Assembly (NCBI RefSeq): GCF_026151205.1 | Contig: NC_087074.1 | Coordinates: 7,915,726-7,979,725, forward strand | Source: Bolinopsis microptera | Taxonomy: Eukaryota > Ctenophora > Tentaculata > Lobata > Bolinopsidae | DNA length: 64,000 nucleotides | Direction of reading: 5' to 3' | Shown: positions 23,261-59,945 of the stretch, one piece after another | Layout of the letters: each line of letters opens with the position of its first letter | How positions within the stretch are numbered: the first letter of the stretch is position 1 | The notes under the pieces: model-generated | Told to the model about the DNA's origin: nothing | The model's database searches: none | Seen by the model: only the letters and a program-made list of their open reading frames with translations | Program-made: the position numbers and the translations under genes

Positions 23261-25816
23261 CGTGCAGTAGGTGATATGCATCATAATTGATAGTCATAAT
23301 ACTTGTAACTTCGTAAACGTCACAAACTTTTACGCTTCTTGTAATTGTAGTTATTGATTCGCTTGTTTGTAAAACCACTTATTGAAATGTCCAGCCGATA
23401 CCTCATAATCTAGAAAACAGTATTCCGTTCCCAAACAGGGAAATTTCACAGCATGGTCTCTGCTCGTGTGACTTAAATCTGTCAGCTGGATTTGGGCAAG
23501 ATGAACTAAAAGAAAAAGAACTAAGAAAACAGTAAGAGGAGTCTTTTCTCAAAGATTTATCGTCAACTGAAGAACCACCTCGACCAAGTAAGAGAGAAAT
23601 GAGCCCTAACCTGGCTCTCGAACCCACCACTGTTTCTGTAGGACCTCAACTATGTTTTAAACAGGCAAGAATTTCATGACAGCATATAATATGTCTACGT
23701 TATGGTTGGAAGATCTAAAAGTATAGATTGTTACAGGATTATCTCCTCGATACATTAGAATGTGAATTGCCACGGTAAAATTGGCAAAAACCTGAGAAAA
23801 TAGGCCTAAATTTGATGTTTTTTGAAATTGTCAACAGTTTACCTCATGAAAAGAGTAAGGAGCAAAATTTTAAAAATCGCCGCATATTTCTTGATTTTGC
23901 CACAACTCAGAGACAAAATTAAAAGTTCCAAATTTGAGATGAAACAGATTGCAGCTTTAAGAGAAGATAGGTTTTAAACTGAGAAGGAGAAGAAAGATTC
24001 GTACGAAGAGAGGGTACTTCAGTCAGAGTAAGTATTCTTTGTCCCTCTAGACTTCACAACATCTGGAGGAATAGCACCACTCTACACTGCACCATGTTTG
24101 TAGAACATGTGTCTGACTCAGGTTAAAAATCATGTAATAGACATAACATGGTCTCACACTAGCTCAAAAGAGTCATGCTTCATTATCGATGCAATGGTAA
24201 ATACTATATAACACAAAATGAACCCCCTGGCACTTCATGGGGCCGCGTACCTGTGCATGGCAGGCAACCAGTACCAGGGATACATCACAGTACCAGGGAT
24301 ACATTTGAATTTATCTTATGCTACTGTCAAACTAGAAAGTACCGAAATTAATGTTGTACCATGACTGCAGACTGTGATTTCCCATGGCTAAATTATTTGG
24401 TAATTTTACTTTTTCAAGATTAGCTTCTATGTAACCGTTTTGCTACTTTTCTTATTACTGATAATCTTATTAAGTTTTTTTTTTTTTAAATGTAAGATGA
24501 AAAAAATATTACTATCGTTCAAATTTGTAAAACTTTACTTACAAAAGAATGATACAGAAAATTACAGGGCTGCTTTGGCAAGAGTTTCTCCGTCGTATAT
24601 CTTTATGCCAAATCCTATGACAGATGCTTTCATCATTACTAGAGGCTTCGCATGGCTGAGGTAATTAAATTATCATGAAATATATTGCCTATTTGTAAGT
24701 GACCACCAAAATCTGCCCACTATCAGCAACCCTCTAATTCATTTGGCCCTAATTAATTAGAAGTTAAAATCATCCAATTATTACAGAAAACTGTATCTAT
24801 TTAATTTCTCTCAGTACATGTAATCAGTGTCATCATCCTTACGTGAATAAAGTGGCTCATTATATACATAAACGTAGCACTTGGTGTCCAGAGAAAAGGT
24901 CTGAAAGTTTTAACCCCGTTGTTCCATACCCTTGCCAGCAAGCATGTGTACTGAAGGGTCATCATCTTCCCCTTATTTTGCAAATTTCGTTCCCACATGC
25001 ACGATAGCATTCATGGATTCTTGATCTGTTACTGAAATTTTTCGAAATCAGAGATTTAATACAATATACAATGAGAGCTCCATGTGGAAATTTGACTAAT
25101 GGAGCACTCAAATACACATTAAAGACAAATGGCTATTATTTATATGCAGTGACTGATGAGACATAATTTTCATAAAGCATTTTAAAACTCACTTGAAAGA
25201 ACAAATTTCCATTTCTATCAATAATTTTGATACAGTCATCTCTGAAATTGAAAAATGATCTGAAATGGTCCTGATCCTGGCATGTAATATAGAGTCCCAA
25301 ACAAACATAATTTAGATAGTGAAAAGCTTTGTTCACAATTCAGTAAAATGTGTATTTTTATATATTCTTTTTATGATTTCTGCAACTTAAAAGTTGCAGT
25401 TTTCAACTACATTAATTTGCAATTGCTAAATTTGGTTATTATCATTGCAAAAGATCCGCTACCCACTCCTACTAAATTGCTCGCCCAAATTTTCTTGAAT
25501 TTGAAAAAAAAGAAAATTCTTGAGAAAAGGCCCTTTGGGTAAGAAATTTTTACGGACGAAAGAAAAGTGTGTCAAACAGTATATATACAATAAAGTAATT
25601 CAAGTGTTGCAATTGGCAGAGCACAATACAGTAATTTGGGTAAAAAAATTGGGTAAGAAATTGATCAGAATCGGTGTATTTTTGGACGCTGATTCCAAAT
25701 CACCCCCCATGACAAAGGGTAAAAATGCTTCCCTGGAGAGTTATGGGCAAAACACCGTTTTGGTCACGTGACAGGCTATACTAGCGCTAGTAACACACGA
25801 ATTCGGTTGTTTAGGG
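23261..25816. other. intergenic, no supported gene
   Basis: Several open frames of 60-85 codons occur here (for example 23403-23630 minus and 25520-25771 plus). None shows a domain, splice partner or believable start, and codon content looks like background. Confidence 0.45.
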
Positions 25817-25924
25817 CTCGGGTTAGGGTTAGGGTTGTGGTAAGGGTTATGGATATTTATTTATTTATTTGATAGTTTAGTCTGATATTGATATTAATAT
25901 TGATTATATTGATATTGTTATTAT

Positions 25925-26260
25925 TGAATGAAGCTAACTCCAAACATAAATAATACTACTTCTATTAACAAAGGGACTTGGAGTATAAACGACCAATTTT
26001 GCATAATTGTCTATCCAACCAAGAATTCAAGAGGCAAGGGTGGGTGCGTAAACTTTATGGTCTGCACTCTCAGATCCTGTATCACCCTGGATTCATTTCG
26101 ACGTATTTTTGGTAAAAGTATACATATACTTTCTGGTCACTCTCTTGCTACTCCAAGTCCCGGCCTAAGATATATGGTCTAAAGTTTGCACTAGTTATAT
26201 TTATAAAATATGTTTTTGTCTGCTTTAACTGTACTGATACTAAATAAAAATGTTGTTTTC
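25925..26260 (+). repeat. dispersed repeat, copy 1
   Basis: This is a direct match to 28938-29290. Shared blocks include TGAATGAAG, GGACTTGGAG, ATCCAACCAAGAA/ACCCAACCAAGAA, GTGCGTAAACTT and TGTATCACCCTGGATTC, ending in TAAATAAAA..TTGTTGTTTTCTTGAAAT. Copy 1 interrupts the left arm of the composite inverted repeat, so it inserted later. Confidence 0.75.
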
Positions 26261-26723
26261 TTGAAATTGTTGTTTTCTTGGATAGCTTCGGGGTTATGGT
26301 TAGGGTTAGGGTTGGGATTAGGGTTTATGTAAAACCGTTTTATACGGCTGCAAAACCATAAAAACCAAAGTCACGTGAATTTTATGGGCAAGCGAATTAG
26401 TTGTTATGTGTTAGTAAAAGCCTTGGCGGTTGTTACTCGTCTAAATTTCTTCGAAGTAGCGCGCGCCGCTAATTTCTTCTCGAAATGGCCCGATGGCAAG
26501 TGCTACGAAGTAGCGCGCGCCGGGCCAGACCATTAACAATGGTCAAGTAAAAGCCCAAAAGATCTCTTGCACTAAGTAATACATTTTTGTGTTTTGTATA
26601 TTATTACTTTAGTTCACTTTTTACACTTTTGCTCACATCATGATCACTCACAGTCAGCCGCTCTGACATGGTTAACCACCTTCCTTGTGTTGTTGGTTAA
26701 TCATATGAGCGGGATATAAATAC

Positions 26724-26763
26724 CTCATTTCATTTCATTTCATTTCATTTCATTTCATTTCAT
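26724..26763. repeat. CATTT microsatellite
   Basis: About eight tandem copies of CATTT. Confidence 0.9.
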
Positions 26764-28937
26764 GATCAACGCCAGAGAGATTTCGTCAAAAAATCTTTTT
26801 CAGGGGTCCGAAAAAGCCGTACAGGCACTTGGGTCCTTATCCTTGTCACTAATCTCAATTGGATTCGGTTTACACAAAACATGAACATTTAGACGTACAC
26901 ATTTGACATTGACACGATATTTATAAGAAAGCAAAAAGTATAAAATAATACGTGCGTGCGCGGCTTGAGCCGCGCCGCATAAGAACGGATGCGTGCAGGG
27001 GCTGGAATACGTAGTAGATTAATGAAATATTGCATTGTAAATATTGAGAATTGACGATATATTATGATCTAATAGTAAATTTTACAAAGCTGGCTTTGGA
27101 TTAAGGTAAGATTATAATTCATTAAAAAAAACCATGGATAGTTTAAATTTATTTTTATTTGTCGTATATAATCATAAACAATTTAATCCTGTTTTCAAGA
27201 ATGCGCGGCTTTGGCGGCCAGTTATTGACTTATATACATTAAATTGAATTTTAAATAGAAATGTGAATATATTAAAATTTGAAACTTTCAAAACGGAGGC
27301 TTATAAATATTATTATATTATGATTGTAAAATAAAGGATAAAATTTTAAAAATTGTTTCACTAAAATTTGTTTCACTAATTTTCGAAGCTGCAAAAATTG
27401 ACATCGTCAATCAACTAAACATCAATCTCATAATTCGTTTAATTTTATATTTAACCATGGGCCTACGCTTACTACGTTTTTTAATTAATTTAACTCCATA
27501 AAATTTACATTATTTCTTTTTCTTTTTAAACTATTAAAGCGGAAAAATACATAAAAGACGGTGCCATTTGACAATGCGACGCGCGCATTATCACAATTGC
27601 TGCGCACATAATCAGCAATTGCAAATTGTTGCAAAGCAAAAACATAATTTTGAAGGGTCGGCATCATCGATTATAAAGGAACACATAGTTTTTAAAATAT
27701 TCAACTATCAATAATCAATAAAGGCTAAAGAAAAGAAATTTTAAAATTTGTTTAACTATTTCATGGTGGTGATATTTCGTATTTTTCATCGTTGATCACC
27801 TGGAGACTTCAAGGTATAATTAATATATCATGTTGACCATTTTTAATGGTCTGGCCCTTCACATAGCCATGTGCCTACGCGACGCGTACTGCGTGACGCG
27901 CGCTACTGCAAGCGAGAGGGCTCTGGTTAGAGCAAGTCTGGCCCGGCGCGCGCTACTTCGTATCACTTGCCATCGGGCTTTCGAGAAGAAAACGGCGCGG
28001 CGCGCGCGCTACTTCAATGAAATTTAGACGAGTAACATCCGTCAATATATTATGATAATGTCCATAAATATATTGTTACAGGTTTCAGGTTTATAACTTC
28101 AGTCTTCACCTAACCATGTGCTTCCGCGCCACTGTGGGCGCGGGCAAGACGGTATAAGTATCACCCGCTAAAAATATTGAATGTTGAAGTTGCAGCGGAA
28201 ATACAGGCCTTACCAGGGGACCTCAGGCTATTATGTTCATAAATAGAGATTCGGCGGAATGACAGGCTGAGCACGGCCCAGTAAGACAGGCCAGGCTTAG
28301 CGTTGCTCTAACCAAAGCCCTTGGCCCCTTGCGCTTGTAGTAGCGCGCGCCCGTACCGTGAAACAAGCGCCTAAAGTGGTGCGAAAGCTGAGCGCCACTC
28401 AAAATTGTTAACTCATACCAATTCTTAACACAGACAAATTGTTGACACACGTTTTATATTTTTTTGCGTGGAGCTTGCGGCTTTTACTAATTCGCTCGCC
28501 CAAAAATTTCACGTGACTTTGGTTTTTACGGTTTTGCAGCCGTACAAAACGGTTTTACATAAACCCTAATATAATCCCAACCCTAACCCTAACCATAACC
28601 TCGAAGCTATCCATAACCCTCACCACAACCCTAACCCTAACCCGAGCTGCACTGGCAAGCAAATATATATATATATACATTTTAACATTCAATTTTTCAT
28701 GTACAATCAATACAAGTTGATGCATGATGTTGACTTACACTAAGTGTAAAAAGATAACATCTGACATCACAGTAGTGGCAATTTTAAATTGCAGTTATCA
28801 AATTATAGCAGCAAACTCTTACTATTACTATCATGCTTGAACTATAAGCTGAAAAGCTTAATTTCAGATCGATTTTCAAACATTTGTAATAGTTTATCTG
28901 ATCACTGATTAGTTGATATCGATATTGTTTATATTGT

Positions 28938-29789: not shown

Positions 29790-32036
29790 ATGGGTGGATG
29801 TGGTATTGGCTTCCCTGATTTGATCTCATTCATAACCTTATTTTCAACCAGTCTGTATTCTCCCATTGTTCCTGCTCTGCAATATGTAACTCTTGGAGTC
29901 GAAAAGTATGGAATCGAAAATGTGACACTCATTGTTGCATGCTACAAAGAAAATGATACTAATGTGACGTGTAAAGATATTGGAGATGCCATTTCCAGTG
30001 ACATGTCATCATTAACTGTGTATATAAATACTGTAAAAGCTGTCTGTGCTCCAATCTTTGTGGTTTTGCTTGGTGGATATTCTGATGCAGTGGGCAAAAA
30101 GTTTGCTATCAATACAGTTCTCTTTGTAAATATAGTGTGGTGCATTGTAATCCTCTTCAACACAATATTTCTTACTGGCTATCCATCCTGGATGTATGTG
30201 CTTGCAAATGGGTTCATCCTAGGAGTGAATGGAGGCTCTACATTTACTGTCAACAACTTCTTGACTGGTTACCTGTCAATTACAACACCACCATCCAAAC
30301 AAACTGGCAGGTTCAGCCTGCTCTTGGGTTGTGGCCTTCTTGGCTTTGTGCTAGGCCCAGTTACAAGTGGCCTGATTCTGAGGGTCACAACAAAATACTG
30401 GATTCTCGGAGCGCTGTCTACGTCATTGATGTTCATTGCTATGATAATTGGAATTTTCTGTTTGAAACCTATCGAAAATAAACCAGAATTTCAGCTAATG
30501 TTCAGCTGACAGGATTTTTCGATACTTTTGTGAAGGCCTTGAAGTTCCAGTATCATAATACCATTGATCTATTCAAGTATCAGTCTTTCCTTGGAAAGTT
30601 TCTTGGTGCTAACTTCATGTACATGCTAGGTTCTGTTGGATTGATTTCCCCCATTGTCGTCCTGTCCCAGGTGTACTTACTTGCAGATCCTTTTAAATGG
30701 ACAACGAGCTCTAGAGGTTATTTTAGTGCAGGTAAATCAAGCGTCTTGTTACTTGTGAATCACAGTTGCTTAATAATATATAACAATATATTATACTTTA
30801 CTAACACTAATTATTATACTTCACAAAAAATTCAAAAATTGCCTTATTAATTATAACTTTCACCTGTTTGATACTTCAATTTCGTTAGTTTTTAGCTCTT
30901 TAGTTCTATTAAACCTGAACTTTCATTTTTCTAATACCTTTATATTTCAGGTCTGGGTTTGGTCTTGCCCTTCAGAGTGTAATAACAGTGAGAATTTTGA
31001 AAATGTTCCACTTCTCCAGACCTGCCATTGTTAGAGTGGGAGTATTTATGGGTTTTGTTGGAACATTCTTCTTAGCATTTGCTACAAATAGCCCTATCCT
31101 ACTGATAGGTAAGTAAACAAAGGCTTGCTGAACTGTTGACATTTCTGATTCGATGTAAGCTTACAAGTAACTAATTGTAGATAAATATCTTAAAATTTTC
31201 ATGAGAACATGTTTCAGGAGTGGGATTGAGCTCATTCATTGTAATAACAACCCCAACGATTCAATCAATTATACTGTCTCTCGTTGAGCCTGAGCAAGTT
31301 GGTACTGCTGTCGGTTTCATGGCAGCCATGCAAGGCTTTGCTGAAAGTGCTTTAGTTAATATCATCCTGTTGGTTTACAACAAAACTAAACACATCATGA
31401 ATGGCTTCTGCTTTTTCACTTTATCCTTTCTTCTTGGTATTAACCTAGTGATCGCAATGTGAGTACTAGATCTTTTTCAATACTTGTATAGAATACTGGG
31501 GGTGGGGGGGGGGGGGGGGGGGTGGGGGCCAATACTCTTAAATTCTGCTCACTTAACTAATTAAATCAGAAAAATGTACTTTAATTAACTCAAACTCATT
31601 AACTCTATAAATTATCCCTATCTCTAGGTTCTATACGCATCCTCAGACTACAAGGGAAGACAGGAACCCTCTGACAACTGATGATGATACCCCTGGCTCC
31701 CCTATTGTCCCCAGTTCTGATGTTCTCAAAGGGGGTGTACCTAAAGCTTCGACAACTCCTGTGAGTGTTTTGGGGTACTTCCCTGAGGGGCAGAGCATAT
31801 TATCTTGTTTTCACAAAAGATGAACATAGGACTCCACTTTGTAAATCTAATTTTTCCATAAAGATATTGAACCTCCAGCTTTTTTTGCGTTTAAGAAGTA
31901 ACAAGGCAGTGGGCGAATATTTCTATCACAAAAGACTAGGCTAAATTTATCATTTCAGGATGGATGTGGACAAAGTGAACGTACTAGTCCTGATAATATA
32001 TATGCTGCAGATCCTCTACCTGCATCTGAAGCTTAA
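29790..32036 (+). pseudogene. SLC46-like major facilitator transporter, copy 1, two frameshifts
   Basis: This is a 12-helix major facilitator protein, most like the SLC46/TetA-like group (proton-coupled folate or similar organic-solute carriers); the substrate is unknown. Exons: 29790-30731, 30951-31108, 31218-31458, 31628-31760, 31959-32036. Helix 1 is followed by a glycosylatable loop (NVT, NDT, NVT) and the facilitator signature GGYSDAVGKK between helices 2 and 3. The last two exons give an acidic/proline cytoplasmic tail. Against copy 2, exon 1 lacks one base near 30497, leading to a TGA at about 30506. Exon 2 lacks one base near 30967, leading to a TAA. Restoring length 1552 by two gives a multiple of three, consistent with two single-base deletions. 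Decayed gene or sequencing errors. Confidence 0.75.
31500..31528. repeat. G-rich homopolymer tract in intron
   Basis: About 29 bases, nearly all G with two T interruptions, lie in the intron between exons 3 and 4 of transporter copy 1. Copy 2 lacks this tract at the equivalent place. Confidence 0.85.
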
Positions 32037-33621: not shown

Positions 33622-33704
33622 ATGGGTGGATGTGGTATTGAGTTTCCCTATGTTATCGCATTTATTAACCTATTTTCAACAAGTCTGTATTCTGCAATTG
33701 TTCC

Positions 33705-33717
33705 TGCTCTGCAATAT
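33705..33717. repeat. target-site duplication, left
   Basis: TGCTCTGCAATAT, identical to 39273-39285, directly precedes the poly(T) that is the reversed poly(A) tail of the LINE. Confidence 0.92.
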
Positions 33718-34151
33718 TTTTTTTTTTTTTTTTTTTTTAGAGAGGCTGGGCCTGGTTGGCCCACGAGAGTATAGCATATGAATGCTTTGCCTACCTCTGG
33801 GGTATGGCAGTCCTGTGGGAGGATGCCAGTGGAATCAAGATGTGTAATCAAGGATGATGGTAAGTGTTGTGGGGTGTGTCATAGATAAACGCTTAAGTGG
33901 TGGTTGAGTGTGGAAGAGAGAGGCGAAATAAGACGGCGTTAAAGTAGTCGCTATGTTACACCTGTCTGGTCCAACTCCTCTGGCACCACTAAGCGTTTAG
34001 TGTAGTTTGTAAAGTTGACAATGGTGGAGATGTGTTGGTTGTCGAATATGTCATTGACAGAGAGGTAGTAGTCCCGGAAATATTGACCTCTTATTTGGGC
34101 AATAGCCGGGCACTGTCCGAGAAAGTGTGAGACAGTCTCCTCTTCGTCGCC

Positions 34152-37076
34152 CTATTTAGGACAAGCACTTGTGTCTGATTTGCGAATGGTGTGTAGGTGT
34201 TTGTTGAGGCCACAATGTCCTGTGATGAGGTGCACTGCAGTTCTATAATTTTGTCTGTTGTTACTGAGTGTAGTGTTGAGATTTTTGATGATGTTGATGT
34301 TTTTATGTCCAAGTGTCAGTTTAGTGTGTCTGGGACCATCAGTAATCCATGATTCTTGATTAAGTTTTGTGACGTTGTCGTTGATCAGGCGTTTGATGTA
34401 AGATTGTGGAATTGGGCAATTCAAAGTGGATTCACTGGTTGTACCATTTTTGGCCAGCTCGTCTGCTTTTTCATTTCCCCACAATCCAATGTGTGCAGCT
34501 ATCCATCTGATCTCTAAGGTGTTAGTGGATCCGAGTGTATTGAGGGTGTCGTAACAGTCTCTAGTAGTCCTACTCCTCGTTGAAGGTGAGGATATGGCTT
34601 GAATAGAGGAGAGACTGTCTGACCATATGATGATGTGTGTGTTTGTATAAGTTGATAGATATTTACAAGCTTCGATGATGGCAGTGAGTTCTGTTTGATA
34701 AACGGTGCAATAATCGGGAAGCTTGAATGATCTTTCATCTAGTGTAGTGTTGTTGTTGTCTGTGGTGATAATATAACCAGCCCCGCTACCTGAGTCTGTG
34801 CGTGACCCGTCTGTGTAGCAGGTGATGGTTTCACTGGGGATGTTGTCGATGGTGTTTTGGAGTGAGCCTCTATATCCAATGTTGTCAGCTCCAGGAGTGG
34901 TGACCGTGAAGCGTCGTTCAAGCATCATGGTTGGTATAGATAGGTCTCTCTCTGCTTTGGGTGGTATGTTGAGATCTACCATGAATTGTTTGTTGATAGT
35001 GGTGTGAGTTGTGATGGTACCTTTTCTGGGGGCGATAGTTTCGAGGGTTAGGCTTCCATAAGCTTGAAGCCTGGCTGTGCCCTTTGCTGCTTCACCTCTC
35101 AGGAAAAGTATGATATCTGGAGTGTTAGTGAGGTGGTTCAGTGCGATGAAGGGAGTACTAGGCATGGCACCAGACATCATTCTCAATGCCAATGCCTGAA
35201 CTCGTTTGAACTTCCTCGCGTTGGTGTCTGTTTGGGTTGCTCTAATCCATATACTACAGCAGTATGATAGAATAGGTCTGATGACAGCGGTGTACATCCA
35301 TTTGCATGTTTTAGGGCTCATACCCCAAGTGGGGCCGACAGCTCTTCTACATTGCATAAGGGATGCCGTAGCTTTTTTGGTGGTATTGGTGATATGTTCA
35401 TTGAAATTGAGCTTGCTGTCGAGGGTCACTCCTAGGAATTTGGCAGATTTGGATAGACCTATAGTGGTGTTACCCACCACCACAGGTCTTAGTGTCCATT
35501 TCTTATTCCAGGTAAACATGACTATTTGTGTTTTGAGTGCGCTTATGGATAGATCTTTGGTTTGGCACCATTTTTCTATTGTGTTGATGGTTTTGCGTGT
35601 TCTGTTCCAGATGATGTCTAAATCATTCCCCTCCGCTAGAGAGAGCAGATCGTCTGCAAAAGCTTGCAGATAACCTGGTATGTCTCTTGCGGTGTAGGCC
35701 AGGAGATCATCGACTACCAGGTTCCAGAGGAAAGGGGAAAGGATGCCACCTTGAGGGCACCCTCTCCGGATCCGAACCCTTGTCGACTTATCCTTATGAT
35801 TTAATGTGATGAATCTGTTAGTTACCATGTTGATAATCCATTGTGCTGTGGCCAGATCCACTTTCGTGGTCTTGATAGCGTCAGAAATAGCCTTGAAAGA
35901 GACATTATCAAAAGCTCCCTCTATATCTAGAAAGACGCCTAGGACATATCCCTTCTTAGCTATCCTGCGCTCGATGGTGTGAGTAACTTTATGAAGGGCT
36001 GCTTCGGTTGAACATCCTTTCTTAAAGCCAAATTGTCGTTTGTTGATGTCTTTAGCGATATTAAGGTCGTGTTGCATATGCCACAGTATCACCTTCTCCT
36101 GTAGTTTTAACATCACTGGAGAAAGGGTGATAGTGCGAAATAACTTTGGTTGGTTGTAGTCAGTTTTTCCAGGCTTTGGAAGAAAGATTCTAAGGGATTC
36201 TTTCCACAAAGTTGGAATGTGTTGGGTTTCATGATTTTTTGTCATAATGGTTCTGGTGATGTCTTTGATGTGTGTCCAAGCTTTCTGTATGATGATAGGT
36301 TTGAGGGTGTCGGGTCCAGCAGCTTTCAACGGATCGAAAGATTTAAGAGCCTCCTCGATTCTGTCTGGGCTGTAGATGGTATTGAGTAAGGTGGTGGTGA
36401 TTGGTAGAGGACCAGGTGGAGGCACTGGCGGATCAGTGACACTATCCTTGAAGTGGGTTCGTGTCATGACCTCCAATGTCTCCTCTGCATTTTTGGTGAT
36501 GTCTCCGTTTGGTTTGTAAACGGCTTCTAGTGTATGTTTGTTGTCGTTACAGGATTTCAGAATCTTATTCATCCTTCCGGATTCCTTAACAGACTCTGTT
36601 TCCTGACAAAAAGTTCTCCAGGCATTACGCTGGGAGTTGGTTATAAGTCTGTTGTATTGTTTGTTGCTCTCTCTAAGAGCGAGCCACAGGGCATCAGTCT
36701 TCTTTTTGCGGGCAGTAATCAGTTTTTGTCTTATTCCCCTCTGTGCTTCCTCTACTTCTTGAGTTAGCCAGGGGGGTTTGCGGACGGAACTTGAGATGTA
36801 AGTGATGGGGCATGCCTCCTCGAAGGCTTCCTTTAGTGCAGTATTGATTATGTCTATTTTGTGATTAATTTCAGTCGTAGTGTTGATTTGTGTGTTGTTA
36901 AGGTTGGGGTTATTCGATAGGATCTCATCAAATCTGTCCCAGTCAGTGTTTTTGACTAGTCGGATCTGTTTGGGTTCCTTCTTTGGCCCTGTAGTTATAT
37001 CGAACATAATATAGCGATGGTCAGAGTTGGAGTAAAGGTCACTAACATGCCAGTTACTAATGAGATCTCCTCCCAA
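34152..37076 (-). CDS. LINE ORF2: reverse transcriptase and RNase H (intact part)
   Basis: 974 open codons form the C-terminal part of ORF2. They begin at the end of the endonuclease (SNSDHRYIMFDI includes the SDH motif). The RT carries RTITLSPVMLKLQEKVI, FKKGCSTEAALHKV, GVFLDIEGAFDNV, CPQGGILSPFLWNLVVDDLL and the catalytic FADDLL. RNase H has all its key residues: YTDGSRTDSG, YQTELTAIIEA, WSDSLSSI and HIGLWGNEKADELA. A short cysteine/histidine tail follows (HLITGHCGLNKHLH ... SACPK). The enzyme copies element RNA into DNA at a nicked target. The N-terminal endonuclease is out of frame, so this copy cannot make complete ORF2. Confidence 0.9.
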   Translation of the reverse strand: MGGDLISNWHVSDLYSNSDHRYIMFDITTGPKKEPKQIRLVKNTDWDRFDEILSNNPNLNNTQINTTTEINHKIDIINTALKEAFEEACPITYISSSVRKPPWLTQEVEEAQRGIRQKLITARKKKTDALWLALRESNKQYNRLITNSQRNAWRTFCQETESVKESGRMNKILKSCNDNKHTLEAVYKPNGDITKNAEETLEVMTRTHFKDSVTDPPVPPPGPLPITTTLLNTIYSPDRIEEALKSFDPLKAAGPDTLKPIIIQKAWTHIKDITRTIMTKNHETQHIPTLWKESLRIFLPKPGKTDYNQPKLFRTITLSPVMLKLQEKVILWHMQHDLNIAKDINKRQFGFKKGCSTEAALHKVTHTIERRIAKKGYVLGVFLDIEGAFDNVSFKAISDAIKTTKVDLATAQWIINMVTNRFITLNHKDKSTRVRIRRGCPQGGILSPFLWNLVVDDLLAYTARDIPGYLQAFADDLLSLAEGNDLDIIWNRTRKTINTIEKWCQTKDLSISALKTQIVMFTWNKKWTLRPVVVGNTTIGLSKSAKFLGVTLDSKLNFNEHITNTTKKATASLMQCRRAVGPTWGMSPKTCKWMYTAVIRPILSYCCSIWIRATQTDTNARKFKRVQALALRMMSGAMPSTPFIALNHLTNTPDIILFLRGEAAKGTARLQAYGSLTLETIAPRKGTITTHTTINKQFMVDLNIPPKAERDLSIPTMMLERRFTVTTPGADNIGYRGSLQNTIDNIPSETITCYTDGSRTDSGSGAGYIITTDNNNTTLDERSFKLPDYCTVYQTELTAIIEACKYLSTYTNTHIIIWSDSLSSIQAISSPSTRSRTTRDCYDTLNTLGSTNTLEIRWIAAHIGLWGNEKADELAKNGTTSESTLNCPIPQSYIKRLINDNVTKLNQESWITDGPRHTKLTLGHKNINIIKNLNTTLSNNRQNYRTAVHLITGHCGLNKHLHTIRKSDTSACPK

Positions 37077-37743
37077 CTGGTTTGTTATTGTGAGATCGAT
37101 AATTGAGTTGTGGCCTCGAGAGTTGAGGAAGGTTGGGGATGATCCTTTGTTGGCACATGACAGCCCTAGGGAGGAGAGAAAGTCAAGAAGCTCCTCTCCC
37201 CTTTTATTGCATGCCTTGTTCCCCCAAAGGGTGTGGTGGGAATTGGTGTCCGACCCTATAATGAGCGGGATGTTGTTATCATTTGCGTATTTTGCTAGAG
37301 GTGATGTTTCTTGTGGCGGGTACCCGGCCCATTTATATCCATGTACGAAGCTGCCAGAATGAGTTCTGTCGAGCTGAGTTGGATTTTAATGGCCACTTGA
37401 TCGGGTGTTGTGAATTGTGTAAGTTCCCAACATTTTACTGTCAGGTTTTTGTGCAGTACAATAGCGGCACGGGGTCTTTTATCCCGACCTTGTAGTAATA
37501 TTGGGTGAGATCCTTATTGATGGGTGGTATTAGGTTTTTGTTATTAGAGTACGGTTCTGTTGCAAGAATGATTGGATTTCTCCGGCCGTGAGTGTTGATA
37601 AGGAGGGTTTTCCATGCATTGAACTTGCGTTTGAGATTAATTTGGGTGACAGAGTAAGTTTCAGACTGCTTATTGCATGCTGCAATAGTAGTTTTTAACT
37701 TTTTTTTGGCGTCTCTTCTTTTTTGTGCTAGTTTGAGCGTCAT
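37077..37743 (-). pseudogene. LINE ORF2 N-terminus: APE endonuclease, frameshifted
   Basis: The likely ORF2 start is at 37743 (MTLKLAQKRRDAKKKLK). The endonuclease opens with IILATEPYSNN, which contains the catalytic glutamate motif. Near 37480 the frame changes (KVGIKD to RDKRPRAAIVLHK). It continues through ELILAASYMDINGP and then meets a TAG near 37300 before resuming in the frame of the large RT ORF. At least two frameshifts are needed to read through. Confidence 0.7.
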
Positions 37744-37986
37744 TGAGCGGAGTGGAAGCCGTCCCTCCCCCTAGACAGGTATTATGACCTATCATTGCCG
37801 GTGGGGCGCTGAGGAGTTGGACAGGGTCGGGTAGCAGCAGCTGGCCCTCCAGAAGGTACGCATGGTCCCTTCCAGACAAACAGCCCCCGCCAGACCTTCC
37901 CTGAACATGGCTCCCACAGTCCGCTCAATAGACGTTTGTGTGTGAAATTGTGTTTGTTGTTATCTTTTGTTTGTGACCATATGTTC

Positions 37987-38517
37987 TCACGTGGGTGCGC
38001 GCACCCGCTCGAAGATATGATTTTTTTTAGCTTTTAACACAATAATGTCGTATGTCGGTTGGACCATTGAGACTTGCCGAGAGTCAAAAGTGGTCGGTTG
38101 AAAGTAGGTTGTTGGTCTGATCGCAATGCCAACTGTCGATTCAATGTCCCCATCCGGCCCGACTGCAAACAACTTTACTAGCTTAAGCTGGTCGTTATGG
38201 ATAGTGACCGTCCCTCCAGTTGGCACCACTGTTGGTAGTAAAGGTTGGTTTTTGGTGTTGTTACAGTATATTACTTTATAGGGTTCGTGGACGGTGCACA
38301 AAGTGCATGAGTCAGACCCAAGAGTCCGTGCACATACATTCGTGTTTGCCGAAGCACACTCTACCCACAATCTATAAAGCAAATGGTTGATCAGTGAGGG
38401 TGTATCGTGAGTTTTAACACTTTCTGCGAATCGTAGAAAGATGCTGAGAAATACTACGACGACAGTGTTGAAATGCCGCCCAATAAAACAGGGAAAATGG
38501 GTGCTAATGATCGGCAT
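37987..38517 (-). CDS. LINE leader ORF, 176 codons, secreted-like, unknown
   Basis: This frame sits where ORF1 is expected but shows no zinc knuckle or RNA-recognition motif. It has a hydrophobic segment near residues 16-30 (NTVVVVFLSIFLRF) like a signal peptide or membrane anchor. A cysteine-rich stretch (WVECASANTNVC, then CTLC and YCNNT) follows, and then about 90 residues without a recognisable fold. About 110 bases of it are duplicated at 39005-39116. It could be a captured host or other-element fragment. Whether it is translated is unknown. Confidence 0.4.
   Translation of the reverse strand: MPIISTHFPCFIGRHFNTVVVVFLSIFLRFAESVKTHDTPSLINHLLYRLWVECASANTNVCARTLGSDSCTLCTVHEPYKVIYCNNTKNQPLLPTVVPTGGTVTIHNDQLKLVKLFAVGPDGDIESTVGIAIRPTTYFQPTTFDSRQVSMVQPTYDIIVLKAKKNHIFERVRAPT
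38118..38229 (-). repeat. LINE leader direct repeat, copy 1
   Basis: About 112 bases match 39005-39116 with roughly a dozen differences (shared GATCGCAATGC, AACTGTCGATTCAA, CTGCAAACAACTTTACT, CTTAAGCTGGTCG). It lies inside the 176-codon ORF. Confidence 0.8.
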
Positions 38518-39004
38518 TAAGGGCCCGACCTGAAGCGCACACCCTAAACTTCAAAAACCCTATAGCTCAATGTGAATGAAAGCTGTGAGTGCTCAGGAAG
38601 GAAGGATCAGGTGAGTTAAATAGCCAAAAGAAGTGCACGTGCGACTTATGTCCAGTGATGCCCAGCTGGACAGTACGGCTTAGTTTCGGCAGGTCGAGTG
38701 AAGCCCAGTAAGCCCCCTTACCACGTCAAGGTCACTTAACCGACTCCAGGCTGCAGTTCCAATCAATCCAAGAATGAAAGACACGAACAAGAAGTGGGTT
38801 GAAAGGAATTACAGTCAGATAAATCAGAGTAAGTGGGCGGAGTCTTCACGAATGCTCTGGTGCTCAGGACTGACTCCGCCGCCGTACTTATAATCCCAGC
38901 AATTCTAAAGCGTCCAGGAGGCCCCAGACGAGAGGCGGGAGCCCAAACCCCCCGTGCTAGCCCCGAGAAACGGGTCCAAGGCCCGAGAGTTTGACAAGAG
39001 CCAG

Positions 39005-39116
39005 GATCGCAATGCTAACTGTCGATTCAAAGTTCCCATCCGTCCCGACTGCAAACAACTTTACTTGCTTAAGCTGGTCGGTATGAATAGTAACCGTCCC
39101 TCCAGCCAGCACCACT
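39005..39116 (-). repeat. LINE leader direct repeat, copy 2
   Basis: Second copy, near the element's 5' end and about 890 bp from copy 1. Flanking sequences do not match, so only this module is duplicated. Confidence 0.8.
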
Positions 39117-39272
39117 CACCCATCCCCGCCGCACCCCCGTGCCAACCCCCAGATCTCAGACCATACCACGAGGAGCACGAACCCACACCAATCCCGCCCA
39201 GGACCCACCCAGCCGCTCGAATTACCGGGAAGCTGCCTGGCTAATGCTCTGGACCAGTTACATATTGTAACT

Positions 39273-39285
39273 TGCTCTGCAATAT
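39273..39285. repeat. target-site duplication, right
   Basis: TGCTCTGCAATAT at the 5' end of the LINE; the transporter coding sequence resumes immediately after it. Confidence 0.92.
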
Positions 39286-39433
39286 GTAACTATTGGAATT
39301 GAAAAGTATGGAATTGAAAATGTGACACTCATTGCTGCATGCTATAAGGAAAATGCTTCTAATGTGACATGCAAGGATATTGGGGATGTAATTTCCAATG
39401 ATATGTCGTCTTTAGCTGTCTATATAAATGCTG

Positions 39434-40159
39434 TAAAGTCAAAAAGCTAAAATTGTCCTTTTCAGGCTTATTTTAACAAAAAGACAGTCAGGGAAGATCG
39501 GATTGATTTGATGCTTGACATCAAATTGTTCTCTGAATTCTGGCGCAGTTTTTGATGCCCTCAAAAATGTTTTTACTCATTCAGCTTCAGATCTATTGGA
39601 CCTCAAAGCCAAACAACAAATTTAGGCACATTTTTCGTTTTTAATATTAATTACTGATTTTTCTAAAATTTTGATAGGAATGTGCTAGTGACTTTTTGAA
39701 GGGTGCAAAATAACCGCAACTAGCACATTTATATATGAGTTATGAACAACAAAACACCCTAAAATGCTTCCCTTTGAAGTTATGGGAGAAAATGGGATTT
39801 TTTGGCTTTGCAGATAAAAAATCACATTTTCTCCCATAACTTCAAAGGGAAGCATTTAAGGGTGTTTTGTTGTTCATAACTCATATATAAATGTGCTAGT
39901 TGCGGTTATTTTGCACCCTTCAAAAAGTCACTAGCACATTCCTATCAAAATTTTAGAAAAATCAGTAAATATTAAAAACGAAAAATGTGCCTAAATTTGT
40001 TGTTTGGCTTTGAGGTCCAATAGATCTGAAGCTGAATGAGTAAAAACATTTTTGAGGGCATCAAAAACTGCGCCAGAATTCAGAGAACAATTTGATCTTC
40101 CCTGACTGTCTTTTTGTTAAAATAAGCCTGAAAAGGACAATTTTAGCTTTTTGACTTTA
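39434..40159. repeat. palindromic insertion in transporter exon
   Basis: The left arm begins TAAAGTCAAAAAGC and the right arm ends GCTTTTTGACTTTA; they pair inward to a short loop near 39800-39820. The left arm carries about 23 extra bases near 39501-39523 that themselves fold back (GATTTGATGCTTGACATCAA). Outside the right arm, about 300 more foreign bases (40160-40463) precede the point where the transporter sequence resumes, so the whole insertion is about 39439-40463. No coding sequence or flanking duplication was found. Confidence 0.85.
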
Positions 40160-42581
40160 AAAATTCATAACACACCAGCCTTTTTAGATACGATATCAAG
40201 ATTTTACACACACCTTGAAATAGATGTGACTAAACGGCGAGCAAAATTTCAACCCGATACCGCAAGAAATGATTAACTTATAGCGTCTCAACCGCAAAAT
40301 AATTTTTTCCGAAAATTGCACTCTCAACCAGGAAATGCTCGATTACAAAAATGGGTATTCTCAAAATAATTTTTTTTGGTGTGGAAACGGTGCGCTAGAA
40401 GGTCATTGAACTGCATATGAGGTCATTTGGTCTGGACAGATTTGGTGTATGCCCCCTTAAGGGTGTTTGTGCTCCAATCTTTGTGATTTTGCTTGGTGGA
40501 TATTCTGATGCAGTGGGCAAAAAGTTTGCTATCATTACACTTCTCTCTGTAAATATGATCTGGTCCACTCTGCTCCTCACCAACACAATATTTATTACTG
40601 GCTTTCACTCCTGGATGTACGTGCTTGTTTGTGGGTTCATCTTAGGACTGAATGGAGGCTCTACCTTTACTGTCAACAGCTTCTTAATTGGTTACGTGTC
40701 AATTACAACACCACCTTCCGAACAAACTGGCAAGTTTAGTTTAATCTTGGGTTGTGGTCTTATTGGGTCTGTGCTTGGCCCAGTTACGAGTGGCCTGATT
40801 CTGAGGGTCACGACAAAATACTGGATTATCGGACTATTGTCGACATCATTGATGGCTATCACTCTGACTATTGGAATTCTCTGTCTGAAACCACTCGAAA
40901 ACAAATCAGGAATTAAAGCTAGTGTTCGGCAGAATGGATTTTTCGATACTTTTGTGGAGGCCTTGAAGTTCCAGTACCATAATACCATTGATCTATTCAA
41001 GTATCAAACTTTCCTTAGAAAGTTTATTAGTGCCAACTTCATGTTCTTACTGAGCTCAGTAGGAGTCATTTCCCCAATTACTATCCTGGTCACAGTGTAT
41101 TTACTTGCAGATCCCTTCAAGTGGACAACTAGCTCTAGAGCATACTTCGGTTCAGGTAAATCTAGTTTGCAATTATTTAGCATATTATCACATTTGCCTC
41201 AAATAAAACCATATTATATTTCATTTTCATTTCAACACTAATATTATCTTTCACAAAAAATAAATTACTGACTACTTATAATTTACAGGTTTTATGTTGG
41301 TCCTTGCCCTTCAGAGTGTATTAACAGTGAGAATTTTGAAAATGTTCCACTTCTCCAGACCTGCCATTGTTAGAGTGGGAGTATTTATGGGTTTTGTTGG
41401 AACATTCTTCTTAGCATTTGCTACAAATAGCCCTATCCTACTGATAGGTAAGCAAATAAAGGCTTGCTGAACTGTTGACATTTGTTATTCAATTTTAGCT
41501 TTTCAATCATAATTTTCTCAATTTTCAAAATTTCAAATATATTTGTTTTTCAGGAATGGGGTTGAACTCATTCATTGTTATAACAACCCCAACTATCCAA
41601 TCAATTATCCTGTCTCTCGTTGAGCCCGAGCAAGTTGGTACTGCTGTGGGTTTGATGGCGGCTGGGCAGGGCTTTGCTGAAAGTGCTCTTGTTGATCTCA
41701 TCCTGTTGGTTTACAATAAAACTGAACACATCATGAATGGCTTCTGCTTTTTCGCTGTATCCTTTTTCCTGGGATGTAACCTAGTCATAGCAATGTTAGT
41801 ACTAGAATATTGATGCTAGATGTCTACTCACGCACAGTATTAAGTATACATGATTTTTGTTCACTTAGATAATTGAATAAGATAAAGTTTACTTCATTTC
41901 TCTAAAATTTAACTCATTAACTCACTACAAATAATCCCTATCTCCAGGTTCTACACGCATCCTCAGACTACAAGAGAAGACAAGAACCCTCTGACAACTG
42001 ATGATGATACCCCTGGCTCCCCTATTGTCCCCAGTTCTGATGTTCTCAAAGGGGGTGTACCTAAAGCTTCAACAACTCCTGTTAGTAATTGAGAGCCTAT
42101 CTTGTTAAAAAAAAAGGTCCGCTCTATTTGTAAATCCAAATTTTCCATCAAAGTTTTAAACCCCCTTGATATGAAACATCCATAATTTCAGGACGGAGAT
42201 GAAGATACAAGGTGTCAACTTACTAGCCCTGATGAACTGATGAACGCTGCAGATCCTCTACCTGCATCTAAAGCATGATAAAACAGCTTTCTGTGGGCCT
42301 GGGAGCATAGCTTGGACAATTTGGGAAATTTTAATTTTGAGTGGTCAATGTGTTTTAAAGGTGTTACTCCGATTTTAAAAGAATATATCTATTTTTCTGC
42401 TGGGAAGGAAGTAGGAACTAGATATTTTTAAAACTAATTTTATTTTTATTGTGATTAGGTAGTTTAATTAAAATTAGAATCAATTAATTTAAACAGCAAT
42501 ACAGTAAGATTATTACATAATTTAAAGATGCTTCTTTCAGCTCTGAAGGACACTTAAATCAGTTCTATGAACTGCTAATAT

Positions 42582-43813
42582 TTGGAGTTCAGGGAAGAGA
42601 TGTCTGAACTTAAAACCTTGCTGAAGGAACAACTGTCCCAGAAACCTGAGAGAGCTCAAGAGCGATCCTCAGATCAGGTTGATTTTATGAAACAATTTGC
42701 TGAACAGTTTTCATCTTTAAAAGAAGACCTCACGAAAAATATCAATGATGTTATTGACAATAAAGTAAACACTGTTGTAACAAAATCCGGTACTGTTTCT
42801 CATACAAAGGACGTTCTCTATTCCAGCTTGTTTACCGACTCAAACAGTTCCACACCATCTGCTCAACCACCACTGCACATGTTCCAATTGCTCCAACACG
42901 TACACAACCTTCATCACCCGAGATTCTAATTCTGTCCCCGAAAGAAGAACAATCGGTAAATGCTGCAACAATGACGAATGTGAAAAAATTTGCTACTGAT
43001 AAATTAAAGAGCAGTCAAGTAGTATTTCTCAGATGTAATGAAAACAACAAGAAAGTTTCAATTGGCTTCCCTAATGCTGAAATTCGTGATAAGGCTACTT
43101 CACTTCTCAATGATGGAAATACCTTAGATTCGTATGGATATCAGTCTAAGAATGGCAACAAAATGCTGCCAAAAGTTACTATTTATGGTGTTTCTTCTGA
43201 AGTTCTTGACGATATAGACACTACAGCTGTAGGGAATGATGCCGATAAACTTAGGGATCTTGAAAAGAACCACTTAGTCGCCCAAATTGTGGAGAAAAAC
43301 TCGTCCATCAAAGATTTGTATGAAGCAGGGCACACTATCAGTATTGTCTATCTCAATAAGATAAAACGTTTCACCAACGATAAGCAGGAACGCATAGAGC
43401 TCACTATTGGAATCAAACTATCACCATCTGTCTATAGAGTCCTCTTTAACCAACAACAAGGATCTCTCTATTTAGGTAGTCGCAGATACAAAGTAACTGA
43501 TCGCTTCTACATCAAACAGTGTTATCATTGTCAAATGATTGGACACACTTCTGTTGACTGTAATGAAGTCAAAACAAATAAACATCCTACCTGCATGTAC
43601 TGTATGGGAAGTCACCGGTCTTCAGCATGCCAATTTAAGCAGAAGAAGGACAAACATGCCTGTGCTCGATGTTTGGCTTCAACACACACTAATGATGCCG
43701 AGAATTCAAGAACACATAATGCGGCAGCTTACGATTGTCCTGTGTTGGTAAGACTAAGAGAAACTAAACGTATTGCTGCTAACACTGACTTCATTTCAAA
43801 AAACGTAATGTGA
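42582..43813 (+). pseudogene. LINE ORF1: nucleic-acid-binding zinc-knuckle protein, one frameshift
   Basis: The first part (42582 to about 42880) is a charged, probably coiled-coil segment (MSELKTLLKEQLSQK, FSSLKEDLTKNIND). The frame then shifts by one near 42880 and goes on (VPIAPTRTQPSSPEILILSP) into the 42971-43813 frame. That part ends in a CCHC knuckle, CYHCQMIGHTSVDC, followed by CMYCMGSHRSSAC and CARC clusters. This arrangement is typical of LINE ORF1 proteins, which bind element RNA. Without the single-base shift it would be one reading frame. Confidence 0.8.
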
Positions 43814-43814
43814 A

Positions 43815-44870
43815 ATTAGGTGCTAATCGACAGAAATCACAGCTTTCTATTGGTTGTTTCAACGCAAGGTCTCTATGCAACAAAACTTGTGGCGTACTAG
43901 AAATGCTTTTAAAGATAACTCGATTTCTATCTGTTGTATCACGGAAACTTGGCTAAAAACTAATGATCGGGCAAAGTTTGCCGAAATCCGTGATTTTGGG
44001 TTCGATATTATCAGTGCCCCTCGAAGAGGTAGGGGAGGTGGTGTTGGTTTTCTCTTCAACCCCAAAATGATATCGCCTGTACGCAATGATGTTACTAAAT
44101 ATTCATCTTTTGAAGTACTTGAATGTGTCATTAAAACTGCTGGTGAGATTATCAGGCTATGTGTAGTTTATCGCAGCACTCAGGCCAAAGCGAAATATGA
44201 TGAAACAAAAATATCTAAGTTTATGGATGACTTTGATGGATACCTGGACAATCTTCTGCTTAAAACTGGATCTCCAATTATTTGTGGTGACTTTAATTTC
44301 CATGTTGAAGACATATACAATAATGCTGCCCAGAACTTTATTGCTCTTTGTGAGAGCAAAGGCTTCCTTCAGCATGTCGACTCTCCTACTCACATCTCCG
44401 GCGGGACACTGGACTTGTTATTTACTCTAGGCTGTGTAAGTGACTCATTGTCTGTAACAGATATGATGGTAGAGACAAGCACTGGAACCAGCTCTGATCA
44501 CTATCTAGTAAGTTTTCAGGTCCCAGTTACATTCGATCTTCATAAAGCTCGTACATATGAAGAAAAAGATGTCAGAGAGCTAAGCAAAATTGACATCGAT
44601 AAGTTCAGGGAAGATCTGTTTTGTTCAGAGCTTAACCTTTCTGAATATCAATCCTTAGACGAGGCTGTGAACCTTTATCAAAATGTCCTTGAACAGGTGC
44701 TAGACAAACATGCCCCACTTATTACGAAACGATTTACTGCTGAAAAGTCTGATTTTTGGGATAATAAATGTCAAATTGCTGTCAGAGAGAGGAGAAGGGC
44801 AAAACGAAAAGCCAAAAAGTATCCAGAGAATGATGAGTTTAAAACTACTCATTTTGAAAAATGGTGTTGA
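43815..44870 (+). pseudogene. LINE ORF2 N-terminus: APE endonuclease, frameshifted at both ends
   Basis: The domain begins SIGCFNARSLCNKT in one frame. It shifts near 43908 into the 43854-44870 frame, which carries the endonuclease motifs ITETWL, RGRGGGVGFLF, ICGDFNFH and TSSDHYLVSF. The frame ends at 44870 (FEKWC), while the continuing protein proceeds in another frame from about 44868. So two frameshifts separate the endonuclease from its start and from the RT. Confidence 0.8.
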
Positions 44871-46764
44871 CGCAGAAATCACTATCAATCGAGCTAGGGA
44901 TGGCTACTATGATAAACAGCTCAGTTCTTGCAAAGGAGACTCGAAAGGGACCTATAAAGTCATAAATAAACTTTTAGATAAGGAATATGGCTCCAACAAA
45001 TTGCCAAATGGTGAAGATACCGAAGTGGCTGCCAAACTCAAGACTTTCTTCGATCAAAAAGTAAAGACCATTTACTCTAATATTGAGAAGGAAATTCAAA
45101 ACACTTCCCTAAACGGTCAAGGTACCAAGGACTCTACTTCGATAGATAATGCAAAGTGTAGACTTAATCAGTTTAAGGAAGTCTCATTATCAGACCTTGA
45201 AACCTTAATTAAGAGTCTTCCCAATAAATCAAGCGTACTCGATGTCATACCAATGTGGCTCTTCAAGAACTGCTTACCCGAGCTTCTCCCAATCATCCAT
45301 TACATCGTGAATGAATCACTAAGAGTCGGAAAGTTTCCATCTGCCCTAAAAGAAGCATCTATTAGGCCTGGACTCAAGAAACCTACCTTAGATGTTGATG
45401 AGCTGAAAAACTATCGACCGATTAGCAATCTAACTTATCTGTCCAAAATACTAGAAAAAGTAGTTCATTGCCAATTAAATGAATATGCTGATGTCAACAA
45501 CCTGTTTTCCCCATATCAATCAGGCTATAGAAAATTCCATAGTTGTGAAACTGCAGTTACCAAAATACATAATGATATTCTAATGATGATTGACAGCAAA
45601 TCGAATGTTGTGCTTCTACTCTTAGATCTATCAGCTGCTTTCGACACCATAAACCATAACCTCCTTCTTACGAAACTCAAGAATGCGTATGGTATTACAG
45701 AACTAGCACTCAGCTGGTTACAATGTTACCTTAATAATCGCACATTCAAGGTTAAAGTAAAAAAAGCCACATCTTCTGAAGGCTATCTGGATATTGGTGT
45801 ACCTCAAGGATCCATTTTAGGACCACTACTGTTCATATTGTATACCAGAGATCTTGAAGAAATTGTCACAAAATATGGTTTCTCGATACATTTGTATGCA
45901 GATGACACACAGGTGTACTTTACTTTTGATGTTCACAGTTCTAATCCTGATTTAACAGCTGTGAAAAATTGCTTTCTGGAGATAAAGCAATGGATGACAG
46001 TTAACTTCCTAAAACTGAATGATGAAAAAACAGAGTTCATTGATATAGGACCATATGTCAGCCCAATCCAGACAATGGATTTAGGAGACCTCTCAATCTG
46101 CCCTGTTAGCAAGGCCAAGAACCTGGGATTCCTTTTCGATCACCAAATGAATCTGGACTCTCAAATAAATGCTGTCTCCAGAGTATGTTATTTGAATCAA
46201 AGGGACTTAGCAAGAATCGGTTCGAAGCTTTCCCATGACCTAAAAGTTCAGTTAGTTCACTCCAATATCCTCTGTTTCATAGACTACTGCAACTCAGTCT
46301 ATTATGGAATAACAGAAAAGAATCTTCATAAGCTACAAAAGATACAGAACAATGCTGCTAGATTTATCTTTGGTCTTTACGGAAAAAAGTTACGTGAACC
46401 TATCTTGCTTTACCTCAAAAAGCTCCACTTTCTGCCTGTTCGGTTCAGAATTAAGTTCAAAATATCACTTCTGGTCTTCAAGTGTCTTAATAACATAGCC
46501 CCTCAGTACTTACAAGGACACGTCAATCTAAGGGAAGTACGAAGACAAAGTTCCAGACTAGATGATGACTTTTATTTGTTGAAAGTTCCTCCTGCTCCTC
46601 ATTTCAGACGAACAGATGCTGCATTTATGTTTTGTGGACCAAAAATTTGGAATGAACTACCCTACTCAGTGAGATCATTATCATCTGTAGAATGTTTTAA
46701 AAATGCCCTAAAGACGTTTTATTTCCAACTAGCTTTTGATAATATTTCTAATATTTGTCCATAA
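44868..46764 (+). pseudogene. LINE ORF2: reverse transcriptase, open but cut off from endonuclease
   Basis: The RT frame is open from 44710; real homology starts near 44868 (AEITINRARDGYYDKQL). Conserved blocks: NYRPISNLTYLSKILEK, LLLLDLSAAFDTINHNLL, GVPQGSILGPLLFILYT and the catalytic YADDTQVYF. The C-terminal part (IDYCNSVYYGI, IQNNAARFIFGL, PKIWNELPYSVRSL) matches the truncated copy at 19 kb. There is no RNase H, as expected for CR1/L2-like elements. This is the best preserved part of the element. Confidence 0.85.
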
Positions 46765-59702: not shown

Positions 59703-59945
59703 GTCAGGAACATAGAGACTGTGCAGTGTAAAACTGGAGACGAGGTCAGGAACATGGAGACTGTGCAGTGTGCACCTGGTGACGAGGTGAGGAACATGGA
59801 GACTGTGTAGTGTGCACCTGGAGACGAGGTGAGGAATATGGAGACTGTGCAGTGTGAACCTGGAAACGGGGTCAGGAACATGGAGACTGTGCAGTGTGAA
59901 CCTAGAGACAATGTCAGGAACATGGAGACTGTGCAGTGTGAACCT
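59265..59945. repeat. 42-bp coding minisatellite, about 16 copies
   Basis: The unit CCTGGAGACGAGGTCAGGAA (continuing CATGGAGACTGTGCAGTGTG) is 42 bp, a multiple of three, so copy-number change keeps the frame. About ten copies encode the GPCR tail. A GAG to TAG change at 59700 ends the protein, and about six further copies follow as 3' UTR, with extra stops and more substitutions. Confidence 0.92.

Follow-up and report, generated by a model that had tools for sequence, protein, structure and literature searches.

Two probably independent insertions, a LINE and a foldback-like element, in the first exon of one copy of a tandem MFS transporter pair

Introduction

A gene encoding an MFS transporter lies as two tandem five-exon copies on the + strand of the 64-kb stretch of Bolinopsis microptera DNA analyzed here (the window; 38% G+C), and the first exon of copy 2 is interrupted at two places. 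Genes are often damaged by inserted DNA that interrupts them, and the question raised by this locus is what entered the exon, by which route, and with what consequence for the pair. Comparisons were made within the window and with protein families and sequences from the PDB. We conclude, with a probability of roughly 85%, that two independent insertions, one of a target-primed LINE and one of a foldback-like DNA element, inactivated copy 2. The features on which the argument rests are listed in Table 1.

Table 1. Features of the transporter pair and of the two inserts (positions in the window)
Feature	Position	Strand	Remarks
Copy 1, MFS transporter	29790-32036	+	both insertion sites empty; lacks one base at each of two places against copy 2
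Copy 1, exons	29790-30731, 30951-31108, 31218-31458, 31628-31760, 31959-32036	+	five exons
Copy 2, MFS transporter	33622-42278	+	
Copy 2, exon 1, first piece	33622-33717	+	32 codons from ATG
Left target-site duplication	33705-33717	+	13 bp, TGCTCTGCAATAT
LINE insert	33718-39272	-	5,555 bp; interrupts copy 2 exon 1 after codon 32
LINE poly(A) tail	33718-33738	-	21 T on the + strand
LINE body	33739-39255	-	antisense to the gene; without recognisable gag-like ORF1
In-frame TAG	34152-34154	-	closes the long ORF2 piece; open 66-codon stretch (33954-34151) beyond
LINE ORF2, longest open piece	34155-37385	-	endonuclease C-part, RVT_1, RNase_H
Endonuclease N-part	37298-37770	-	two further frames (37444-37770 and 37298-37513), by reading translations
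5'-junction filler	39256-39272	+	AGTTACATATTGTAACT; 17 nt between LINE and duplication
Right target-site duplication	39273-39285	+	13 bp, TGCTCTGCAATAT
Copy 2, exon 1, middle piece	39286-39438	+	51 codons
Palindromic insert	39439-40461		1,023 bp, frame-preserving
TTAA at right edge	40457-40460		then inward (- strand) GGGGGCATACACC; left edge without TTAA
Copy 2, exon 1, third piece	40462-41155	+	
Copy 2, rest after palindromic insert	40462-42278	+	
Copy 2, later exons	41289-41447, 41554-41794, 41948-42080, 42192-42278 (TGA)	+	
Identical patch, 131 bp	41322-41452	+	= copy 1 30983-31113
Identical patch, 87 bp	41984-42070	+	= copy 1 31664-31750; within exon 4

Results

Both transporter copies are broken as assembled

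Both copies matched the Pfam family MFS_1 (E=4.8e-10 for copy 1 and 4.6e-9 for copy 2). The original prediction had labeled the gene SLC46; assignment to the MFS family stood, whereas SLC46 itself gained no support, since no PDB sequence matched either the first 239 aa of copy 1 (E<=0.01) or the 231 aa searched of copy 2 (E<=1). In NCBIfam, just a tetracycline-efflux MFS model was matched below its cut-off (29.2 and 27.4 bits, against 850), which we take as a generic MFS signal. A structure model of the first 239 aa of copy 1 had a pLDDT of 39.6 and was unusable.

When both inserts are skipped, copy 2 reads as 520 sense codons with no internal stop, its final codon being the TGA of a TGA-TAA pair, the one stop that was counted; the statement that the surrounding coding sequence holds no other stops is therefore true for copy 2. 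Copy 1 had been taken as an intact reference, and in this respect the prediction failed: relative to copy 2, one base is missing between 30485 and 30486 and another between 30963 and 30964 (GG to G and CC to C), so that copy 1 is frameshifted as assembled. These 1-bp deletions could be sequencing errors. At the 3' end of the gene, the copies are separated by gaps of 4, 2, 3 and 3 nt, and the frame is kept overall. Considering the two frameshifts of copy 1 together with the two inserts of copy 2, no full protein can be read from either copy as assembled.

The effect of the inserts on copy 2 is direct. A reading frame followed from the ATG runs into the LINE and meets a stop after 50 aa, and the middle piece of exon 1 reads into the palindromic insert, where TAA is the fourth codon; the LINE or the palindromic insert, each alone, ends translation of copy 2. 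Loss of copy 2 function in the animal would be the expected outcome. Alignment to copy 1, which is continuous at both places and thus provides the empty site for both inserts, bore out the proposal of two separate insertions within one exon.

The LINE is a damaged element with a target-site duplication

The proposed LINE with a 13-bp duplication in exon 1 of copy 2 was confirmed: the insert measures 5,555 bp, the duplication matches at 13 of 13 positions, and copy 1 is uninterrupted there. On both strands of the 64 kb, TGCTCTGCAATAT occurs three times, the third time at the corresponding place in copy 1 (29873), and the exon pieces that flank the LINE align to copy 1 at 87%. The element encodes a reverse transcriptase (RVT_1, E=2.7e-30), an APE-type endonuclease (Exo_endo_phos_2, E=2e-17 on 37077-37385) and, C-terminal to RVT_1, an RNase_H domain (E=6.1e-15). 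The pieces of the endonuclease N-part that lie in other frames each fell below the Pfam cut-off; going by their translations, the endonuclease is apparently spread over three frames, that is, broken by at least two frameshifts. Counting the in-frame TAG, the LINE itself is damaged at three places or more, so that one has to suppose that it was mobilised in trans or has decayed since it was inserted. Upstream of 37770, none of the 11 minus-strand open pieces of at least 45 codons reached any Pfam cut-off in a search that allowed E up to 10, the best matches below the cut-off having E=0.14 and 4.2, and no gag-like ORF1 was thus recognised. ORF1 is not known to be universal among LINEs, and its apparent lack thus leaves the LINE identity standing. 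A search for relatives of ORF2 in viral contigs gave one stretch that fitted a pattern and none that was confirmed.

Near its 5' end, the LINE contains a 112-nt direct repeat (38119-38230 and 39005-39116, 90% identical); the minus-strand translations of the two units differ at many residues, indicating that it is probably not a coding repeat. A second LINE lies on the + strand at 42971-46764, and some 0.7 kb separates the copy 2 stop from the first ORF of this downstream element; Exo_endo_phos and RVT_1 were detected in it, along with a zinc knuckle below the cut-off, and a search for its target-site duplication yielded just 9-10-nt matches, none of them convincing.

Within the filler at the 5' junction of the inserted LINE, positions 39256-39267 repeat, in inverted form, 12 nt of target sequence across the inferred nick site, a match that was equalled by none of 2,000 random 30-mers drawn from 33760-39200. 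From these footprints we infer the following enzymatic route: the LINE would have been placed in exon 1 by target-primed insertion, and the end of its cDNA would have been joined via the 17-nt filler, part of which may have been copied, inverted, from the target.

The palindromic insert is asymmetric

The second insert, predicted as 1.0 kb of palindromic DNA 153 bp past the LINE, is real and absent from copy 1. Its right edge needed correction, because an edge at 40463 leaves copy 2 short by 2 nt, whereas an edge at 40461 keeps the frame. The term palindromic applies to part of it. Its two arms, 39434-39803 on the left and 39816-40159 on the right, are complementary at 342 of 344 aligned positions and differ further by indels of 23 nt and 3 nt, and the pairing extends 5 bp into the exon (TAAAG); by contrast, the right tail (40160-40461) is 302 bp of unpaired sequence that terminates in CCCCCTTAAG. 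The left flank reads GTAAAG, and AAG is found on both sides of the insert, a 3-bp agreement that could be due to chance; no convincing target-site duplication was seen at the edges. Neither was there a terminal inverted repeat that takes in the right tail: when the right-end 18-mer was compared with a 100-base span around the left edge, the best placement matched at 8 of 18 positions. At E<=1e-3, neither the LINE nor the palindromic insert had a further BLAST match in the window apart from its own internal repeats; the exact 23-mer of the insert's right end was absent from viral contigs, and Rfam gave no match across the window at gathering thresholds.

We have filed the insert as a foldback-like, non-autonomous element. 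The arms of a foldback-type element would be expected to reach both termini, whereas here the 302-bp right tail lies outside them. The insert would have entered the exon as an element encoding no protein, 153 bp away from the LINE, such that one arm directly adjoins exon sequence and the tail is on the opposite side. The TTAA at the right edge hints, weakly, that it is perhaps a relative of TTAA-type MITEs whose left end has been lost. Scanning the window for paired TTAA ends gave nine pairs, one inside the arms of the 39434-40159 palindrome and eight inside 61.2-64.0 kb, and the reversed sequence, an unclean control in that it retains the palindromes, gave 27. With the three long palindromes of the window cut out, the counts were zero and three, respectively, which lends no support to a TTAA family. 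A Helitron was rejected by eye: the end motif of Helitrons is CTRR, and the insert starts with TC but ends in CTTAAG.

Alternative origins of the palindrome

The palindrome could also have arisen by fold-back DNA synthesis, in which the exon first captured a fragment consisting of one arm and the tail, and one strand of it then folded back to serve as template for a copy of part of its own sequence. The flush arm, the pairing that takes in five exon bases, the one-sided tail and the lack of a clear target-site duplication all agree with such an origin, as does the presence elsewhere in the window of two more long, nearly perfect palindromes that have no BLAST similarity to the insert. However, a tail of 302 bp that ends at TTAA with the frame kept fits a left-truncated element as well, and chance or microhomology can explain why the pairing takes in 5 bp of the exon. 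We regard fold-back synthesis as possible, if unlikely.

The first of the two other palindromes (799-2135; 1,337 bp with a 1-nt center) adjoins a run of about 20 G and has 8 mismatches in 668 paired positions; its edges show no flush duplication of 3-10 bp, and its 152-aa ORF had no Pfam match with E up to 10. The other (61227-64000) is a long inverted repeat with 9 mismatches in 1,145 paired positions, three small gaps and a 478-nt spacer, and its outer arm stops at the window edge.

Part of the pattern might instead reflect errors of assembly or sequencing, with palindromes formed from chimeric reads and 1-bp homopolymer frameshifts introduced into copy 1 and the LINE. Long palindromes are a known risk of some library types, three of them occur in 64 kb, and each lesion of copy 1 removes one base from a GG or CC pair. 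By contrast, arms that differ by a 23-nt indel, a 3-nt indel and two mismatches are unlike a simple inverted chimera, and the clean 13-bp duplication and the poly(A) at the LINE are unlike an assembly join. Such errors are a doubtful explanation, which we consider quite unlikely.

It is less probable still that the palindromes at 799-2135, at 39434-40159 and from 61227 to the window end are products of one ongoing process of fold-back copying, of which the transporter exon caught a one-tailed product, rather than three unrelated transposons; they are unrelated in sequence and have similar levels of arm mismatch (8/668, 2/344 and 9/1,145). Finally, the palindromic insert is most improbable as a new intron (GT at 39433, AG at 40461; 1,029 nt), because, although GT and AG are present and, judged by eye, its removal keeps the frame, the donor GCTGTAAAG fits the consensus at 4 of 9 positions, as compared with 6-8 for eight native donors, and the LINE 51 codons upstream would stop translation anyway.

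Age of the insertions and exchange between the copies

Both insertions had been described as recent. The stop-free frame of copy 2 permits this, although it bounds their age loosely: for an unconstrained copy 2, the probability of finding no stop falls from 0.63 at 1% divergence to 0.40 at 2%, 0.10 at 5% and 0.01 at 10%, and that of finding neither stop nor frameshift, with indels assumed at 0.1 per substitution, is 0.13 at 1% and 0.017 at 2%. Considering that dS between the copies is 0.36-0.60 in the three pieces of exon 1, the inserts look young relative to the copy split. The arms of the palindrome, which differ at 2 of 344 positions, point the same way, unless conversion keeps them alike.

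Over 512 of 522 codons (10 gapped codons dropped), dN/dS between copy 1 and copy 2 was 0.32. Divergence is uneven along the gene, exons 2 and 4 having dS values of 0.04 and 0.09, respectively, as compared with 0.22-0.60 in the other five pieces, the lowest of these belonging to the short exon 5. The copies share three identical runs of at least 30 bases (131, 87 and 48 bases), when the longest run expected at an assumed divergence of 18% is about 29 bases; the surroundings of the identical patches are roughly 80-87% identical. The 131-base run reaches just 5 bases into the intron, of which the first 36 bases show two differences. Gene conversion between the copies may account for these runs and is their simplest reading, going by sequence comparison.

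Further repeats were observed elsewhere in the window. A tandem repeat whose copies are offset by multiples of 42 nt (59269-59949) lies largely inside a 903-aa LDLa/7TM receptor ORF and encodes GDEVGNMETVQCEP-like units, making it a coding minisatellite. At 25811-28647, inverted repeats that consist partly of telomere-like TTAGGG units are spaced about 2-3 kb apart, as those of a DNA transposon would be.

Discussion

The reading that we favor remains that a target-primed LINE and a foldback-like DNA element independently entered exon 1 of copy 2. The proposed order, LINE first and palindrome second, was not borne out: the two inserts are not nested, and hence the sequence cannot give their order. 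The locus makes a clean worked example, in that a tandem copy serving as the empty site allows the duplication, the filler and the insert edges to be read directly. The mechanism is ordinary and of modest teaching value, and knowledge of LINEs and foldback elements is unchanged by it. One loose end of some interest is that long, nearly perfect palindromes are abundant in the window, and the putative conversion patches suggest that sequence was exchanged at some time between two copies that are each broken differently as assembled. Among the matches listed, a like case, a TE insertion in an exon of a tandem duplicate, was absent as far as titles and the opening lines of abstracts tell.

Comparison with known systems

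The LINE is most readily likened to APE-type LINEs with RNase H, a group that includes the I, LOA and Ingi-like clades. It shares with them the endonuclease, reverse transcriptase and RNase H in this order, the poly(A) tail and the 13-bp target duplication; it differs in having no recognisable gag-like ORF1 in its 5' 1.5 kb, a 17-nt, partly target-derived 5' filler and a broken ORF2.

The palindromic insert has long inverted repeats in common with foldback-like elements such as Galileo (PMC4168063). In contrast to these, it is asymmetric, with a 302-bp tail beyond the arms at one end, and shows no terminal inverted repeat, clear duplication or transposase. Kolobok termini have TTAA at the edge and continue inward with two purines (RR; PMC6004289), a trait that is present at one of the two ends of the insert. 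With Kolobok and piggyBac TTAA MITEs (PMC6004289, PMC2872659), the insert shares the right-edge TTAA, then GG inward as in the Kolobok RR, and the absence of coding capacity; unlike them, it has neither a left TTAA nor a matching left end, and, unlike piggyBac, its right end does not carry the CC[C/T]T motif.

The LINE's 5' junction also has parallels. R1/R2 5' junctions carry non-templated bases and, in some cases, target duplications (PMC2718515), and extra 5' nucleotides are reported at 14.6% of 5'-truncated human and chimpanzee L1 elements (PMC2912911). Variable bases at the 5' end of the element, some of them copied from the target, are common to those junctions and to the one described here; whereas target duplications and non-templated bases are described for those, the 12-nt copy in this transporter exon is inverted.
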